Part shown: positions 7,043 through 38,676 of the stretch, piece by piece
Numbering within the stretch: the first letter of the stretch is position 1
Layout of the letters: every line of letters starts with the position of its first letter
Source of the DNA: Planctomycetota bacterium
Lineage (GTDB): Bacteria > Planctomycetota > Planctomycetia > Planctomycetales > Planctomycetaceae
DNA length: 64,000 nt
Direction: 5' to 3'
Assembly: GCA_003388505.1 (NCBI GenBank)
Contig: QQVO01000015.1
Location: 257,501 to 321,500 of the forward strand
Notes under the pieces: model-generated
Seen by the model: the letters and a program-made list of their open reading frames with translations, nothing else
Told to the model about the DNA's origin: nothing
Database searches by the model: none
Translations under genes and position numbers: made by a program

Positions 7043-9769
7043 TCAGTCGTCCGATTTTTTCTTCTTCGCCGACTTCTTCCTGGTCTTTTTGGCCGCCGAC
7101 GCCTTGGACTTTTTCTTTCCCGCCTTCTTCTTGGCGGACTTCTTTTTCGTTGCCTTCTTCTTGGTCGCCTTCTTGCCGCCCCCCTTCCTGGCGGCTTTTT
7201 CCTCGATCCATTCCAGCGCCTGTTCGAGGGTGACCGTGTCCGGATCGACGTCCTTCGGGACCGACGCAAGCCGCTTCCCTTTCTCACCATGCCGGACGTA
7301 CGGTCCGTAGCGGCCTTCGTACAGGCCGACCGGCTGCTCATCTTCGGGATGTTTGCCCAGCACCTTCAGCGGCGGCGTCGGGCCCCTGCTCTTGCTCTTC
7401 GCCAGCATTTCGAGGGCGGCCGGCATGTCGACGGTCAGCACGTCCACAGTTCGCCCGTCCGAGGTCGTAAACGTGCCGGTTTTGCGGTCGAAGTTGCCGT
7501 ACTTCTTGTCGTGCAGCACATACGGGCCGAACCGGCCGATGCCGACGTTGACCACCTTTTCCGTCTCCGGGTGATGCCCGATCCGCCGCGGCAATTGCAG
7601 CAACTGGATCGCCGTCTCGAGGTCGATCTCCGTCGGCTCGTAGTTCGGCGGGATGGAGACCCGCTTCGGCTTGGGCATCTCCTCGGTCACGTCGCCCAAT
7701 TGCAGGTAGGGGCCGAACGGTCCGCTGAGGATGTACACCGGCAGCCCTTCCTCGGGATGCATGCCAAGCGCTTTAGGCCCCTGCTTCTTGAGTTCGATCA
7801 GTTTCTCGGCCAGTTCGTTGTTCACGTCGGCCGGAGCGATGTCGTCCGGGAGCGACGCCGTCACCGTGTCGCCATTCTGATGTTTTTCGAGATAGGGGCC
7901 GTAGCGACCGACGCGCACGTCCGATTCCAGCCCATCGAGGTGGAGCGTGCACGCCTTGCGGGCGTCGATCTGTTCTTCCTGCGTCTTGACCTGGACTTCG
8001 AGTCCGTCGTCGCCGCTGTAGAACCGGTGCAGGTAGGGACGCCGGTCGGCCTGCCCGTTGGAAATGTCGTCCAGCGACTGTTCCATCTGGGCGGTGAACT
8101 GGAAGTCCACCAGATTCGGGAAACGTTCTTCCAGCAGCCGCGTGACGGCCAGTGCCGTAAACGTCGGGATCAACTGGCTGCCCGACTTCCGCGCGTAACC
8201 CCGGTCCTGAATCGTCCCGATAATGCTGGCGTAGGTGCTCGGCCGGCCGATTCCCTCCGACTCCAGCTTACGGACGAGCGAGGCTTCGGTATATCGCGCC
8301 GGGGGCTTCGTTTCGTGGCCGACCGCTTCGAGTTCCAGACACTTCAGCGTGTCCCCTTCCGCCAGTTCCGGGAGGGAGGCCTCTTCTTCCTCGTGCACCG
8401 CGTCCGGGTCGTCACTCCCTTCGACATAGGCGCGGAAGAATCCCGGAAACTCGACATGCCGGCCGACCGCGCGAAACTCCGCGTCAGCCGCGGTAATGGT
8501 CACCGTGTCGAAGCGCAGGCGGGCTTCCGGCATCTGTGTCGCCATCGTCCGCTTCCAGATCATGTCGTACAGCTTGAGTTCCCCGCCCGAGAGTCCGATT
8601 TCGGACCCGGTCTTCATCTCTTCGCCGGCCGGCCGGATCGCCTCGTGAGCTTCCTGCGCGTTTTTCGTCTTCCCGGTGTACTGCCGCGGCGACTCCAGCA
8701 TGTAGGCGTCGCCGTAGTCCTGCTGAATCCGCGCCCGCGTGGCGTTGAGCGCCTCGGCCGAGAGCGTGACGCTGTCGGTTCGCATATAGGTGATGTGGCC
8801 GTCTTCGTAGAGCCGCTGGGCAGTCTGCATTGCCTGCCGGGCCGACATCCCCAGCTTGCGGTTCGCCTCCTGCTGCAGGGTCGACGTGATGAATGGCGCG
8901 GCGGGGCGGCGCATCTGCTCGCGATGCTCGATCGACGTCACAGTCCACTCGGCGTCCTGGAGCCGGTCGTGCAGGGAACGGGCGTCCTCCTCGGAGAGCA
9001 GCAGGACGTCGGCGCCTTCCTTGATGCGGCCGGTGTTCTCATCGAAGTCCTTTCCGGCAGCCACTTTCCGACCGCCGACGGTCGTCAGGGCGGCATCGAA
9101 CGATTCCTCTTTGAGCGTCGCCAGCCGGGCGTCGAGATCCCAGTAGGTGCCGCTTCGGAACGCCAGCCGCTCGAGTTCCCGCTGGACGAGAATCCGTACG
9201 GCGACCGACTGCACCCGCCCGGCGGAGAGGCCGCGTGCGATCTTCTTCCACAGCAGCGGACTCAGCGTATACCCATACAGCCGGTCCAGCACGCGCCGCG
9301 TCTCCTGAGCCGCGACGAGGTTCTCGTCGACGTCCCGCGTGTTCTCGAGCGCTTCCTGAATGGCCTTGCGGGTGATCTCAGAGAAGACCATCCGTTTGAC
9401 GGGAACTTTCGGGTCGAGCAACTGCGCGAGATGCCAGCCGATGCTCTCCCCTTCCCGGTCTTCGTCGGTCGCGAGAATCAACTCGTCAGCGTTCTTCAGC
9501 AGCGACTTGAGTTCCTTGACGATCTTCTTCTTTTCCGGAGGAACGATGTACAGCGGCTGGAAGTCGTCCTCGACGTTCACGCCGAGATTGCTCCACGGCT
9601 CCTTCTTGAACTCGGCGGGGATCTCGGCCGCCTTGGCCGGCAGGTCGCGGACGTGCCCCATGCTGGCGCGCACCTCGTAGTCGCTGCCGAGAAACCCGCC
9701 GATCTTCTTCGCCTTGGCGGGCGACTCGACGATCACGAGTCCCTTCTTGTTTTTCTTTGCAGCGGCCAC
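7043..9769 (-). CDS. topA: DNA topoisomerase I (type IA)
   Basis: The 908-residue enzyme relaxes negative supercoils. The TOPRIM domain opens with LVIVESPAKAKKI and contains the acidic TDEDREGE box (about 101-108). The active-site tyrosine is Tyr328 in HITYMRTDS. The C-terminus has no zinc-finger cysteines; instead there are about four copies of the topoisomerase C-terminal repeat (GRYGPYLEK, GPFGPYLQL, GRFGPYVLH, GRYGPYVRH). A Lys-rich tail of roughly 60 residues follows, built from KKATKKKSAKKK-like units and likely to bind DNA non-specifically. The start is a GTG with GAGG seven bases upstream. Confidence 0.97.
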   Translation of the reverse strand: MAAAKKNKKGLVIVESPAKAKKIGGFLGSDYEVRASMGHVRDLPAKAAEIPAEFKKEPWSNLGVNVEDDFQPLYIVPPEKKKIVKELKSLLKNADELILATDEDREGESIGWHLAQLLDPKVPVKRMVFSEITRKAIQEALENTRDVDENLVAAQETRRVLDRLYGYTLSPLLWKKIARGLSAGRVQSVAVRILVQRELERLAFRSGTYWDLDARLATLKEESFDAALTTVGGRKVAAGKDFDENTGRIKEGADVLLLSEEDARSLHDRLQDAEWTVTSIEHREQMRRPAAPFITSTLQQEANRKLGMSARQAMQTAQRLYEDGHITYMRTDSVTLSAEALNATRARIQQDYGDAYMLESPRQYTGKTKNAQEAHEAIRPAGEEMKTGSEIGLSGGELKLYDMIWKRTMATQMPEARLRFDTVTITAADAEFRAVGRHVEFPGFFRAYVEGSDDPDAVHEEEEASLPELAEGDTLKCLELEAVGHETKPPARYTEASLVRKLESEGIGRPSTYASIIGTIQDRGYARKSGSQLIPTFTALAVTRLLEERFPNLVDFQFTAQMEQSLDDISNGQADRRPYLHRFYSGDDGLEVQVKTQEEQIDARKACTLHLDGLESDVRVGRYGPYLEKHQNGDTVTASLPDDIAPADVNNELAEKLIELKKQGPKALGMHPEEGLPVYILSGPFGPYLQLGDVTEEMPKPKRVSIPPNYEPTEIDLETAIQLLQLPRRIGHHPETEKVVNVGIGRFGPYVLHDKKYGNFDRKTGTFTTSDGRTVDVLTVDMPAALEMLAKSKSRGPTPPLKVLGKHPEDEQPVGLYEGRYGPYVRHGEKGKRLASVPKDVDPDTVTLEQALEWIEEKAARKGGGKKATKKKATKKKSAKKKAGKKKSKASAAKKTRKKSAKKKKSDD

Positions 9770-9836: not shown

Positions 9837-10063
9837 GGTCGCATTCCGGTTGAGCTTGTCGGTATTTCGGACGCAACTACAATGCCGACGGGCGTCCGGC
9901 TGTTGCGGATGGCATAGAGCATGGCTCAGCCGGTTGTCAAGATAGACGCCGCACAGCGCGACGCCTGTTCGCAATTCGCTTGCTCCCAAAGACGGCTGAG
10001 TCGCCGCGTCGTGCCCGTCCTCTCGGAAGCAACGTGAACGGGCCGGCGAAACAGATCACGACG

Positions 10064-10167
10064 AGAGCAAATTGCTCTACCATGTGTCCGCGACGAACGG
10101 TTTTCGGACTGTCGAGCCCGGGATTCCGCGAGACAGATCCCCAACACTGATTCGCAAAGCGCTCTAA
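10064..10167 (+). repeat. About 104-bp MITE-like repeat, copy A
   Basis: The element opens with the palindrome AGAGCAAATTGCTCT and closes with GCAAAGCGCTCTA. Its ends are partly inverted: AGAGCAAATTGC against AGAGCGCTTTGC read from the other end. A second copy at 24178-24281 is about 85 percent identical over its length with no gaps. It has no coding potential. It sits in the 411-base spacer between divergent topA and the PpiD-like gene, ending 13 bases before the latter's start codon. A small non-autonomous mobile element is the likeliest identity. Confidence 0.7.
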
Positions 10168-10180
10168 CAAAGGTCCACGG

Positions 10181-12841
10181 ATGAAGTCTCCCTTTGCCAT
10201 TTTTCGCGACAATCAGAAGGTGCTGATGGTCGTCCTGGTCGGTCTGTCGATGATCGGCTTCGTCTTTCTCGGCGCCATCAACGATCCGACGAACATTCCC
10301 ACCGCTTTGATCTTCATCACGATCATCGCCGTGGCGGGAGGCGCGGCCTGGATCCTCGGGATGCCGCAGAAGCGGTCCGCCGAGTACGGAATCTGGGGCG
10401 TAGTCTTCGGAGTCGCCATTGCGATCCTCGTCACCCGCACCGGAGGCCCCGCGCAAGCCATGACGGCCCAGGGAGGCGACGTCTCCGTCGAGGAACTTGT
10501 CAGCTTGCGACAGAAACGCGATCTGGCCAATCAGTTCGTCGCCCACGTGCTACAGGCGACTCAGGCTGACAATCCCGATGACATGTTCCCGCAGCAGACG
10601 ATGATGCAGAAACAGCGGCAGTACATGCTCGGTTTCAACCTGCCGCCCGATCGCGATGTCCTGACGACCGAACTCCTCTACCGCGAAGCCGAGGAAATGG
10701 GACTTGAGGCCAATGAGGCCACGGTCACCGAGTACCTGAACCAGATCAGTGACGGCAAGCTCTCCCAGGAGAAGCTCAAGGAGATCTGTGGAGAGCTGAA
10801 AATCAGTGTCTCACAGCTCTACGAAATCCTGGAGCGCGAACTCCAGGCCCGGATGGCGGCCGAACTCCTCTACGACTACGCCTTCGACGAGATCTACCGC
10901 ATCTCCCCCACGCTCCCTCCGGAGCAGTACTGGGACTTCTACCGCAAGCTCTACGTCCGGCAGAAAGTCGCCGCCGCAGCGATTCCCGTCGAAAACTTCA
11001 TCGACGAGGACGCCGAACCGCCGGAGTCCGAGTTGCAGGAACTGTTCGCCGCACACGCCGCCAACTTTCCGAATCGCACCGCCGAAGGTCTGCCCGCTCC
11101 CGGCGATCCCGGGTTCCGCCAGCCGCGCCGCGTACGCATCGGTTTCCTCGAAGCGGTTTTTGAAGAGGCGAAGGAGACCATTGAACCGGTCACCGAAGAA
11201 GAGGTCCGCGAACGGTATCAGGCGGAATACGTCCGCCCGGCTGAAGAGGCCGCCCAGCGCGCTGCCGAGGAGGCCGAGGAAGAGGCCGCCGCCGAAGAAG
11301 CGGCAGACGGGCCGGAATTGCCCGGCGACGATCGGCCTGCTGACGAAGAGCGCGCTGGCGAAGAGCCCGCTGACAACGAGTCCGAGGGAGATGCGTCCGC
11401 TCCCGAAACCGAATCCAGTCCGGAGTCGGAGGCGGAGCCCGAAGCGGCAGAGCCGGAAACTTCGGAGAACGATACGTCCAGCTTGCCGATCCCCTCGGGC
11501 TCAGCGACCCAACTGACGTCCCTCGAAACGGAATCGCCCGCCATCGAGCAGTCCGGCGAAGAACCACCGGCCGACCCCGGCCCCGCGAAGCAGGACGACG
11601 TCACCGAAACCGAGACTGACGAGCCAGCCGATCCTGCGGCGGATGCCGAAGCGGCAGAGAACGAGAACGACTCGGAACCAGAGTCGGAATCAGACCCCGA
11701 ACCGGCGTCCGAAGGCGACAACGCCCAGTCCGACGACGCAACCGGCACTCCGGAATCAACCGATCCAGCCGTGCCGTCCTCCGACGTTCCGCTGCTCGAT
11801 GAACTCCTCAAAGAAGAGATCCGCAACAAGATCGAAAACGAACGGACGCGCGAGAAGCTGCGCGAGAAAATGGCCGAAGCCGCGCGATGGCTCGAGTCGA
11901 ACATCGGGGAAGCCATCTTCGCTCCCGAGGAGAGCGAAGAGCACATGTCGGATGAGCGGGCGGCCGAACTCATCCGCGACTACGCCCAGGAGCACAACCT
12001 GCATTACGGAGAAACGGAACTGCTCTCCTTCACCGAGTTGATGGAGTCGGAAGAGTACCCCGTCGGCCAAGCAATGACCGTCGTCCCGGCCGGCGCACGG
12101 CCCGAAACCGTCCCCAACGCCGTCTTCAACACCGGTAAGGAGGATCGCTACCGCCCCGTCACCGCGGAGGAGCCGGTGTTTTCCAGTTGGTTCGTGTTCT
12201 GGAAACTCGAAGACAAGGACGACTACGTTCCGGAATCCATGAACGACGAGCGCGTCCGCGAGCAGGTGGTGGAGGCATGGCGCGAACTCCAGGCCCGGCC
12301 GCGGGCCCAGGCCCGTGCCGAAGAACTGGCCGAACTGGTCCGCAACGGGGACGCCCCGATGGACGAAGTCTTCGGCGAGATCACGATCACCGGCGAGGAA
12401 GACAGCCTGCTGCTGCAAGTGACCGAAACCGGAGACTTCACATGGCTCACCACCGGCAGCCTGGAACCGCAGTTGTACAGCCGCACCCCGCCCAGGCTGA
12501 TGTCGCCCGCCGGAATCGAATTGGGCGGCGAGGACTTCATGCAGGTCGTCTTCGACGAACTCGCGCCCGGGGAAGTCGGCGTCGCGCCGAACGCCGATCG
12601 TTCGATCTACTACATCGTCTCTCCCAAGGACCGGATTCCGGCGGCCGGCGAAGAGTTCGAAACGTTTCGGCAGAATTTTCTCAAGCAGCAGGTCTTTGAG
12701 AAGAACGATATGTTCGCGGGCATGGGATTCGACTCAATCTACCGGCAACTTGCCGTCATGAAGACCCAGGAGACCCGGTCCGATTACTGGGTCGACGACC
12801 TCTGGGAACGTCACGGCGCGGAGCAGTTCGTCGGCGGCTGA
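10181..12841 (+). CDS. PpiD/SurA-N-like membrane protein with long acidic insert
   Basis: The protein has 886 residues. Three hydrophobic segments come first (about 14-34, 41-60, 66-85). A helical segment resembling the chaperone part of SurA/PpiD follows (LLYREAEEMGLEANEATVTEYL, about 166-190). From about 346 to 536 there is a low-complexity stretch dominated by Glu, Asp, Ala, Pro and Ser, after which a helical region resumes (LLKEEIRNKIENERTREKLREKM). No convincing parvulin catalytic domain was recognised. It probably acts in folding or tethering exported proteins at the membrane. It precedes, on the same strand, the GldA/GldFG/DUF4340 genes. The exact function is unknown. Confidence 0.65.
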   Translation: MKSPFAIFRDNQKVLMVVLVGLSMIGFVFLGAINDPTNIPTALIFITIIAVAGGAAWILGMPQKRSAEYGIWGVVFGVAIAILVTRTGGPAQAMTAQGGDVSVEELVSLRQKRDLANQFVAHVLQATQADNPDDMFPQQTMMQKQRQYMLGFNLPPDRDVLTTELLYREAEEMGLEANEATVTEYLNQISDGKLSQEKLKEICGELKISVSQLYEILERELQARMAAELLYDYAFDEIYRISPTLPPEQYWDFYRKLYVRQKVAAAAIPVENFIDEDAEPPESELQELFAAHAANFPNRTAEGLPAPGDPGFRQPRRVRIGFLEAVFEEAKETIEPVTEEEVRERYQAEYVRPAEEAAQRAAEEAEEEAAAEEAADGPELPGDDRPADEERAGEEPADNESEGDASAPETESSPESEAEPEAAEPETSENDTSSLPIPSGSATQLTSLETESPAIEQSGEEPPADPGPAKQDDVTETETDEPADPAADAEAAENENDSEPESESDPEPASEGDNAQSDDATGTPESTDPAVPSSDVPLLDELLKEEIRNKIENERTREKLREKMAEAARWLESNIGEAIFAPEESEEHMSDERAAELIRDYAQEHNLHYGETELLSFTELMESEEYPVGQAMTVVPAGARPETVPNAVFNTGKEDRYRPVTAEEPVFSSWFVFWKLEDKDDYVPESMNDERVREQVVEAWRELQARPRAQARAEELAELVRNGDAPMDEVFGEITITGEEDSLLLQVTETGDFTWLTTGSLEPQLYSRTPPRLMSPAGIELGGEDFMQVVFDELAPGEVGVAPNADRSIYYIVSPKDRIPAAGEEFETFRQNFLKQQVFEKNDMFAGMGFDSIYRQLAVMKTQETRSDYWVDDLWERHGAEQFVGG

Positions 12842-23957: not shown

Positions 23958-24179
23958 ATGCTCGTGCTGACCCGCAAAGCGAACGAATCGATCCTCATCG
24001 GCGACAACATCGAATTGACCGTCGTGGAGGTTCGCGGCAACCGCGTGAAGCTCGGTATCGTGGCGCCCCGCACAGTCCCCGTACTGCGGCAGGAGGTCGC
24101 CCATGAAGTCCACCAGAATCGTCCGGCAGTGGCAACCGGCAGTCCCGGAGGACGGGCCAAGTCGATGGTTCTCAGCTAG
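23958..24179 (+). CDS. csrA: Carbon storage regulator CsrA
   Basis: The 73-residue protein matches CsrA over its first 50 residues: MLVLTRKANESILIGDNIEL, VEVRGNRVKLGI and APRTVPVLRQEV. The RNA-contacting residues Leu4, Arg6 and Arg44 of the family are all present. CsrA dimers bind GGA motifs in mRNA leaders and block translation or alter stability. The C-terminal tail (about 20 residues) is not conserved. There is a strong AAGGAG ribosome-binding site. The stop codon is the first triplet of a 104-bp repeat copy. Confidence 0.95.
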   Translation: MLVLTRKANESILIGDNIELTVVEVRGNRVKLGIVAPRTVPVLRQEVAHEVHQNRPAVATGSPGGRAKSMVLS

Positions 24180-24281
24180 AGCAAACTGCTCTACCAAGTG
24201 TCCGCGTCGAGCGGTGTTGGGACTGTCGAGGACGAGAATCCGCGAGACAGATCGCCAACACTGATTTGCAAAGCGCTATAG
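24178..24281 (+). repeat. About 104-bp MITE-like repeat, copy B
   Basis: This copy starts within the csrA stop codon (TAG/AGCAAACTGCTCTACC) and ends at GCAAAGCGCTATAGTC. It aligns without gaps to copy A at 10064-10167. In the end segments, A has CTCTAAC where B has CTATAGT. The leading palindrome has a C/T difference at its centre. The element forms the immediate 3' untranslated region of csrA. Confidence 0.7.
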
Positions 24282-24395
24282 TCGCTGACGTTTTCGGGGG
24301 CGATCAAGGGGGCTGAGCACCGGAACGGCGCAACGACCGTTGCATCAAGAGGGGCGACGCCGCAGAACTGTAAGGATCTTCCCGCACCGATCCTG

Positions 24396-24463
24396 AAAAA
24401 CAACCCGCCTCTGCCACTGTGCCGCATTTCGATCCGGCATGGCGGCAGAGGCGGTTGTTTTTT
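24396..24463. terminator. Bidirectional intrinsic terminator between csrA and the DUF1501 gene
   Basis: AAAAACAACCCGCCTCTGCC (24396-24415) pairs with GGCAGAGGCGGTTGTTTTT (24444-24463) with one bulged C, forming a stem of about 19 base pairs. A T-run follows on the plus strand and an equivalent one on the minus strand. It sits between two converging genes and can end transcription of both. Confidence 0.85.
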
Positions 24464-24499
24464 GAAAGGCGAAACAGTTCACCCGCGTCCTTCGGTGCG

Positions 24500-37965: not shown

Positions 37966-38676
<711 letters not shown>

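Follow-up and report, generated by a model that had tools for sequence, protein, structure and literature searches.

The 104-bp repeat that occurs twice in the window, the stretch of 64,000 nucleotides analysed here, is probably (at roughly 70%) a MITE, a transposable element without a transposase of its own, with about 100 bp lying between two TAs; it would be mobilised in trans by a transposase of the IS630/Tc1 type. We assign it to this class because of its anatomy, its target, its empty sites and the spread of its copies. It measures about 106 bp including the TAs, well under the 300 bp that bound a short element of this kind, has no coding capacity and is dispersed as copies on both strands.

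Two copies in the window

The first-pass annotation had described a gap-free match between positions 10064-10167 (copy 1) and 24178-24281 (copy 2), and the two indeed align without gaps, with 90 of 104 positions identical. Copy 1 starts, as had been noted, with a palindrome (AGAGCAAATTGCTCT at 10064-10078, with arms of 6 bases and a spacer of 3 bases), and the consensus has an imperfect terminal inverted repeat (TIR), TA[G/T]AGCnnnTTGC, at both of its ends. When the copies were aligned together with their flanks, the boundaries of the element came out 1-2 bases wider than first listed and read [Y]TA-GAGC...GCTA-TA[R]. In copy 1 the left TA is mutated and reads GA; in copy 2 both TAs are intact. 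The elements, their predicted stems P1 and P2 and the neighbouring genes are as follows.

10063-10166, forward strand: copy 1 with its flanking dinucleotides, GA at the left and TA at the right (10165-10166); 93.2 bits with covariance model R1, whose training set includes this copy
10064-10078, forward strand: P1 hairpin of copy 1 at its left end, AGAGCA-AAT-TGCTCT
10085-10092, forward strand: 5' arm of the P2 stem of copy 1 (TGTCCGCG)
10127-10135, forward strand: 3' arm of the P2 stem of copy 1, CGCG-A-GACA, with the conserved bulged A at 10131
24177-24280, forward strand: copy 2, with TA at both ends (24177-24178 and 24279-24280) and target CTAG; 84.3 bits with R1
24178-24192, forward strand: P1 hairpin of copy 2
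24199-24206, forward strand: 5' arm of P2 of copy 2
24241-24249, forward strand: 3' arm of P2 of copy 2
24177-24179, forward strand: stop codon TAG of csrA, made of the target TA and the first G of the element
23958-24179, forward strand: csrA, 73 aa, host gene of copy 2 (PF02599, E 1.2e-24)
7043-9769, reverse strand: topA, neighbour of copy 1
10181-12841, forward strand: open reading frame of 886 aa with its ATG at 10181

Copy 1 ends at 10167, 13 bases before this ATG, and the topA identity of its other neighbour is borne out by Pfam matches to Topoisom_bac and Toprim; both points agree with the first description. The label 'PpiD-like' given to the 886-aa frame is unconfirmed, because the frame has no Pfam match at E 0.001. 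BLAST comparison of 30 copies with the window brought up no third one at E 0.001, and promoter and terminator scans found no site within the element. Behind csrA, an inverted repeat (AACAACCCGCCTCTGCC...GGCAGAGGCGGTTGTTTTTT at 24395-24470) by eye resembles a native terminator; it is missing from the terminator scan, which allowed loops of 3-8 only.

Copy number and target site

The assembly that holds the window (G000; 6,782,375 bases in 78 contigs) was searched with patterns for the two halves of the repeat, each with up to 3 mismatches. The 26-base left-half pattern occurred at 156 places (90 forward, 66 reverse) and the 25-base right-half pattern at 162, while both reversed controls gave 0. 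The possibility raised earlier, that only two copies exist and none in relatives, is therefore not the case: G000 has about 160 copies, and relatives carry the repeat as well. A first DNA search of G000, in which the best 40 of 209 candidates were scored, was part of this work; 106 distinct copies were retrieved from the genome, 19 of 125 matches having been dropped as the same place fetched again. The exact length is 106 bases, counting one flanking base per side, in 94 of the 106. Identity to the best neighbour reaches 1.0, with a median of 0.97 (103 copies), and in two sets, one of four copies and one of two, the members do not differ at all between the TAs although their flanks do.

TA stands at the left end of 87 of the 106 copies, at the right end of 70 and at both ends of 58, in keeping with the TA-flanked copies that the first-pass annotation had named as a sign of mobility. 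The aligned ends read Y-TA-GAGCAAATTGCTCT ... GCAAAGCGCTA-TA-R. Among 55 full-length copies with both TAs, the left TA is preceded by T (55%) or C (38%) and the right TA followed by A (67%) or G (24%). T or C stands before 93% and A or G after 91% of these copies, which makes YTAR, a self-complementary sequence, the target consensus. In other carriers the base before was T or C in 18 of 20 (G157), 14 of 16 (G081), 9 of 10 (G041), 11 of 14 (G156) and 8 of 8 copies (G161); where the right end was readable, the base after was A or G in 10 of 10, 12 of 13, 2 of 2, 5 of 6 and 2 of 4, respectively.

We compared filled with empty sites. Loci L036 and L104 read CTA-element-TAC, and a related repeat in L069, a paralogous one, is empty and has a single CTAC with no junction gap against L036. 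A filled site in G157 (L229, GTC-TAG-element) corresponds to an empty site in G159 (L132, GTT-TAA), and the coding ends align to the last codon; this comparison covers the coding end only, as the DNA downstream is not alignable. Empty sites with one TA fit a duplication of TA and an element ending in TA equally well and cannot tell the two apart. At an orthologous empty site (L258/L141) the flanks were too diverged to be read.

In L036 (position 1497) and L104 (2997) the element is nested in a second palindromic repeat, at the CTA that forms its foot; this second repeat, CCGACTCGTCGGAGCGAGTCGGCTAC in L069 (1852-1975), looks by eye like a GTAG-type, REP-like sequence. Copies in L005 (the same as L061), L079 and L093 sit at the CTAG of CCCTGCGGGTCGCGGCTAG, and the same sequence stands unoccupied at 1320-1338 of L008, about 160 bp from an element. 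CCCTGCGGGTCGCGGCTAG may represent a further repeat family and a favoured place of insertion. Direct pairs of copies about 860-930 bp apart flank single called genes in L014 (569/1499) and L015 (633/1499), like small composite units.

A candidate partner of the IS630 family

G000 has four matches to PF13358 (DDE_3). Contig C73 carries an IS630-family IS of 1,084 bp (L150 1400-2483) with DDE_3 and HTH_Tnp_IS630 above cut-off. Its ends, TAGAGCGCTCTGCACAAC and TAGAGCGCTCTGCATAAC, match at 17 of 18 positions, with the TIR TAGAGCGCTCTGCA, and its transposase frame diverges from that of a related copy near the C-terminus. The first-pass annotation had suggested looking for a full-length IS with the same ends; the ends of this IS are similar, not identical. 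Read inwards, the right end of the repeat agrees with one end of the IS at 21 of 32 positions, with the other at 18 of 32 (the latter being the right end of the IS) and with the end of a second IS copy at 22 of 32, whereas the left end of the repeat is weaker (16, 19 and 17 of 32). For comparison, 8,759 other TA-starting 32-mers from masked G000 were set against the first IS end, and 4 of them had 20 or more matches, with a maximum of 23; two of these four are, as read, unmasked ends of the repeat itself, and it is an unrelated 32-mer that reaches 23. The likeness between the TIRs of the repeat and those of the IS is modest. The IS copies (L150 and L146) resemble the repeat in being flanked by TA and in ends that begin with the TIR; the likeness is limited to the ends, the IS being 1,084 bp long and having a transposase gene.

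One copy of the repeat lies 45 bp from the IS on C73; contig C17 has a second such case, in which about 130 bp separate a copy from a DDE_3 remnant. When 47 transposase loci were searched with R1, all 4 matches (3 places) fell in DDE_3 loci. Twenty loci found with the IS protein had paired ends starting TAGAGC in ten cases and another pair in one; in nine none were found. L105 has, on its minus strand (minus-strand coordinate 2622), the sequence TAGAGCGCTCTGCAG, a near-match to the IS630 end that may mark one more IS terminus; a repeat copy lies about 500 bp away.

The carriers searched apart from G000 yielded no partner IS. DDE_3 has no match in G157 (251 places, single contig), G081 and G053, and 12 DDE_3 loci of other carriers held no TA-bounded element with paired ends of the TAGAGC type. 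Best-neighbour identity is lower there, at 0.96 in G157 (22 copies) and G081 (21) and 0.90 in G041 (14). This greater divergence fits, without proving, a loss of the partner. ISY100, of the IS630 family, inserts into TA and duplicates it (PMC2170065), and the same paper cites Tenzen and Ohtsubo 1991, whose title reports a preference of IS630 for the TA in CTAG. We infer that the repeat is mobilised by an enzyme of this kind, which would act in trans by cut and paste into TA.

Insertion at stop codons

Genes were called with a home-made codon-usage caller trained on the window, not with a standard program. In 33 of the 106 copies of G000 the upstream gene stops in a codon built from the target TA and the element's first G (with TAA there in one case). 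Sixty-three genes have their 3' end facing a left end; 33 of them stop exactly there, and the next nearest is 7 bp off. A stop at the right end was seen for two copies, both with a variant right end that also reads TAGAGC. Across six groups of related loci, 34 of 107 rows were at a stop (33 of 105 places once L128/L170 and L140/L211 are each counted once): 9 of 14 in G041, 10 of 14 in G156, 6 of 21 in G081, 5 of 22 in G157, 2 of 8 in G161 and 2 of 28 among mixed loci found with a degenerate pattern.

As a background, the window and 54 loci have 104 YTAR sites in coding sequence, 99 between genes and 25 in stop codons. Of 77 copies whose left end is an intact YTAG, 27 are at stops, against 25 of 124 non-coding sites (p 0.0017, both orientations counted), and against half of the stop sites, with one orientation viable, the same excess has p ~3e-8. 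Counted in both orientations, the excess is modest. Overlap with a called reading frame of any other kind was seen in only 5 of the 106 copies, and 26 of the 73 non-stop copies lie between diverging neighbours.

The left end begins, on its inner side, with G. An element that enters a TAA or TAG stop and has this end facing the gene would therefore recreate TAG without altering the protein, whereas the right end in its commonest form (TAT...) would abolish the stop. Restoring TAG would thus make stop codons a safe harbour in a genome where non-coding YTAR sites are rare. The excess at stops can be read as site preference, loss of in-gene insertions and stop restoration together.

We also asked whether the coincidence reflects truncated reading frames, that is, insertion anywhere in a coding end followed by an in-frame TAG. 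In one frame the TAG is indeed immediate. Homologues of the 65 stop-site proteins were searched among the DNA retrieved for this analysis, leaving out rows of more than 97% identity or with a query tail of more than 40 residues, and 16 of the proteins gave a row (18 rows). The homologue ends within 2 residues of the same place in 11 of the 18 rows (9 proteins) and does not in 7, one of which is cut by the end of the locus; the clearest case is L229 of G157 against L132 of G159. These seven tails would suit truncation, but the eleven agreeing rows and the scarcity of other overlaps with called frames argue against it, and we consider it improbable.

A predicted two-stem fold with arms that change in step

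P1 is an end hairpin, AGAGCA-nnn-TGCTCT. In P2, UGNC-CGYG pairs with CRCG-A-GNCA, leaving a bulged A, and a variable loop of about 35 bases lies between the arms. Pairing was examined in three alignments. The widest has 197 rows in nine groups; G156 and G161, which have a different P2 layout, were left out, and a few places are counted twice (L118, L128, L140 and L033 also stand under G052, G041, G081 and G158, and the label g55 includes them). Its key pair, N:N, is U-A in 121 rows, C-G in 54, G-C in 10, U-G in 2, non-standard in 7 and gapped in 3, which makes 187 of 194 standard. Of the 1,566 P2 cells, 1,470 (93.9%) are paired, against a mean of 89.1% and a maximum of 89.9% after shuffling.

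Alignment A1 (69 rows) was picked by hand from 12 of the 106 copies of G000, 11 of 28 degenerate-pattern loci and up to 12 copies per other genome, ten degenerate or cut copies being left out. Here 91.7% of P2 cells are paired against 85.0% in shuffles (0 of 500 reach this), and at most 66.1% are when the columns are slid by 1-3. Cells changed on both sides number 53 against 21.3 shuffled, and the covariation score is 0.205 against 0.078. Two further counts do not rise above shuffles: 3 pairs are changed on both sides against 2.1 (67 of 500 shuffles get as far), and there are 8 pair types against 8.0 (438 of 500); with P1 and the edge pair included, the counts are 5 against 3.2 (9 of 500) and 14 against 13.0 (93 of 500). 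Alignment A3 (61 rows) combines 33 earlier rows with 28 found by R1, a model that leans towards paired cells, and has 91.8% of P2 cells paired against 84.0 in shuffles, with 2 pairs changed on both sides against 2.0 (reached by 500 of 500) and 4 pair types against 6.0. In A3 the key pair is G-C in 27 rows, C-G in 16, U-A in 16 and C-A in 1 (59 of 60 standard), and a second covarying pair of P2 is C-G in 17, U-A in 14, C-A in 29 and C-U in 1.

Two of five covariation measures, the counts of changed pairs and of pair types, thus do not exceed shuffles, and the evidence for covariation rests on two of the eight P2 pairs. All counts are at the level of lineages and do not represent independent events, and the measures that exceed shuffles can arise from relatedness alone. 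Double changes inside single genomes were seen in L228 (G157), in L210 (G081) and in L315 and L329 compared with L320 (G082). P1 reads GAGCA/TGCTC in 31 rows of A3, AAGCG/CGCTT in 10, CAGCG/CGCTG in 9 and GAGCG/CGCTC in 1, and is perfect over five pairs in 51 of 61, with the register fitted per sequence and 28 of the rows found by the model.

RNAalifold alone recovered P1 and four pairs of P2. Run on 129 mixed rows, from which three truncated copies of G000 and L143 had been removed beforehand, it performed poorly. Single-sequence folds were slightly better than those of shuffles (z -1.4 to -1.8). P2 pairs slightly more often when read antisense than sense, in 478 against 446 of 486 cells in A3 and in 579 against 560 of 621 in A1; the excess comes mainly from one pair, through its C-A cells (27 in A1, 29 in A3), and once that pair and the one at the edge are removed, A1 has wobble counts of 9 and 8. 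Copies of G156 and G161 (L243-L262) appear by eye to be a structural variant, with the same end hairpin and a longer internal stem, GTGCACTCGC with GCGAG-nnn-GTGCAC.

Within these limits, comparison between genera shows an element with predicted stems P1 and P2 whose arms change together. A structured-RNA role had been put forward for testing; followed up here by comparison, the fold does covary, but on two of eight P2 pairs only. The copies that survive and spread would be those that fold harmlessly in transcripts or serve as a hairpin recognised by a protein, and the fold would be kept for this reason.

Distribution among relatives

The left-end pattern, with up to 2 mismatches, occurred in 13 of 170 genomes of the family, with none for the reversed control among the results listed. 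It was found at 150 places in G000; at 52, 251, 3, 24, 21 and 68 in the genomes of genus g55 (6 of 6); at 14 in G041; at 4, 4 and 2 in G051-G053; at 24 in G081 and at 1 in G085. In a class-wide draw, 11 of 397 genomes had matches, the reversed control giving one match each in two genomes, and the sole new carrier was G402. Its three left-end matches (L180), each with 2 mismatches, lie in another family of the class (f11) and could reflect either chance or a distant member of the repeat family.

A BLAST-type search with the consensus reached only 4 of the 170 family genomes. R1, with the best 24 candidates at most scored per genome, found the repeat at E 0.001 or better in 26 of 170, with five or more matches in 21 (nine genera), and had no match in 144. 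With wider limits (150 candidates scored each), there were at least 108 places in G014, 133 in G018, 131 in G082, 28 in G073 and 10 in G063. An exact 30-base pattern had no match in named genomes, a set outside which G000 itself perhaps falls. A collection scan with a degenerate pattern gave 28 loci, all from MAGs titled Planctomicrobium or Planctomycetaceae.

Class assignment and alternative explanations

The first-pass annotation had left open whether the repeat is of a MITE or a REP type and called the family previously unlisted. The MITE part of this proposal is supported, and the REP part is not: a REP is a palindrome of 20-40 bp with a GTAG-type tag and a REPIN consists of two inverted REPs, and the element is about 106 bp long with a hairpin at its left end only. 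A known RNA family was considered and set aside: Rfam 15 gave no match over the window at gathering score except a tRNA at 38603-38676, and none at E<=1 on 10030-10190. Phage and plasmid records in two collections had no match at E 1e-5.

The hairpins could instead be recognised on one strand by a Y1/HUH transposase (RAYT or IS200/IS605-like) that moves the repeat as single-stranded DNA, with the TA being part of the element and of the cleavage site. The covarying structure would suit this mechanism, as would the possible strand asymmetry of P2 pairing (478 of 486 antisense, 446 of 486 sense) and the Y1_Tnp matches in 9 of 10 carriers, among them G157, G081 and G053, which all lack DDE_3. However, none of 30 Y1_Tnp loci (examined out of 64 matches) holds an R1 match, the model matches in the 47 transposase loci all fall in DDE_3 loci, and G156, with 52 places, has no Y1_Tnp match. 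The symmetric YTAR target, the start that the ends share with IS630 ends and the hairpin at one end only also speak against it, and we regard movement by a Y1/HUH enzyme as unlikely. The arms of the stems might also covary merely through the shared descent of a few lineages or through template-switch mending, leaving the fold without a role. DNA template switching mends imperfect palindromes, changed-pair and pair-type counts do not exceed shuffles, and the changes are mostly one state per genome. Yet the key pair takes U-A, C-G and G-C, including double changes within single genomes, columns slid by 1-3 pair far less (at most 66%), the bulged base is kept, and about half of the cells of one pair stay C-A (29 of 61), which makes this explanation of the covariation rather unlikely in our view.

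If the fold does matter, it may be the working part of the element. This would be an old structured RNA or single-stranded DNA motif of the Planctomycetaceae that travels as a TA-inserting unit, with compensatory change in at least nine genera while loop and flanks drift, that lands at stop codons and rides at the 3' ends of mRNAs (unless it is produced from the other strand), reaches up to hundreds of copies per genome and has a trans-acting function. We hold this view tentatively, as a possibility that is less than probable. Another alternative is a regulatory or 3'-UTR RNA domesticated by the host, of the kind suggested for BOX or REP, which spread long ago and was kept for its effect on mRNA ends. 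The fold common to several genera would suit it, as would the roughly one third of copies that stand immediately at an upstream gene's stop. Against domestication stand the identical copies in G000, the 26 of 73 non-stop copies between diverging neighbours and the 144 of 170 family genomes without a model match; it seems quite unlikely to us.

Relation to known repeats and significance

By description rather than by sequence, the closest working analogue is RUP of pneumococcus, which is 107 bp long, has 108 to 110 copies and has IS630-Spn1 as its proposed mobiliser (PMC2229807, PMC3049150). According to these two papers, RUP too has TA termini and a TIR resembling that of an IS630 element of the same genome, lies near IS elements and is mostly intergenic. 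It differs in being described with its TIRs paired in the fold, whereas here an end hairpin and an internal stem vary in step across genera, and insertion at stop codons is absent from the descriptions of RUP given there. Correia/NEMIS (about 107 and 155 bp) and ERIC likewise have a TIR, target duplication and TA termini (PMC2229807), but, compared by description, have other hosts and other ends. GTAG-type REPs are palindromic, occur in the PVC group too, and their ends often supply TAG stops to flanking genes (PMC3733652), so that TAG stops from palindromic repeats are known already. Those REPs are of 20-40 bp with a GTAG tag; the element is about 106 bp long, has two different ends and had no adjoining Y1 gene in 30 loci. 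Rhodopirellula-1, a candidate structured RNA of Proteobacteria and Planctomycetes, has in common with the element that both are candidate structured RNAs in planctomycetes, a comparison drawn from its table row, without an Rfam number, in PMC2864571.

No earlier description of the family was found in literature on planctomycete MITEs, intergenic repeats, structured RNAs, IS630 and stop-codon insertion or Planctomicrobium, and the text of a 2024 review of MITEs (PMC10969869) contains neither 'planctomycet' nor 'stop codon'. What is unusual is a family spread over genera with a core that varies in step. Planctomycete genomes are large and little annotated, and a single one can owe hundreds of insertions to this family, many of them at gene ends. 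It offers a simple, testable rule for low-cost spread in a gene-dense genome, namely to carry the base that completes TAG. Selection on the structure of MITEs has so far often been argued from folds of the copies of one genome; a stem that varies in step across genera lets one ask about selection on the RNA or hairpin-DNA structure of a MITE.
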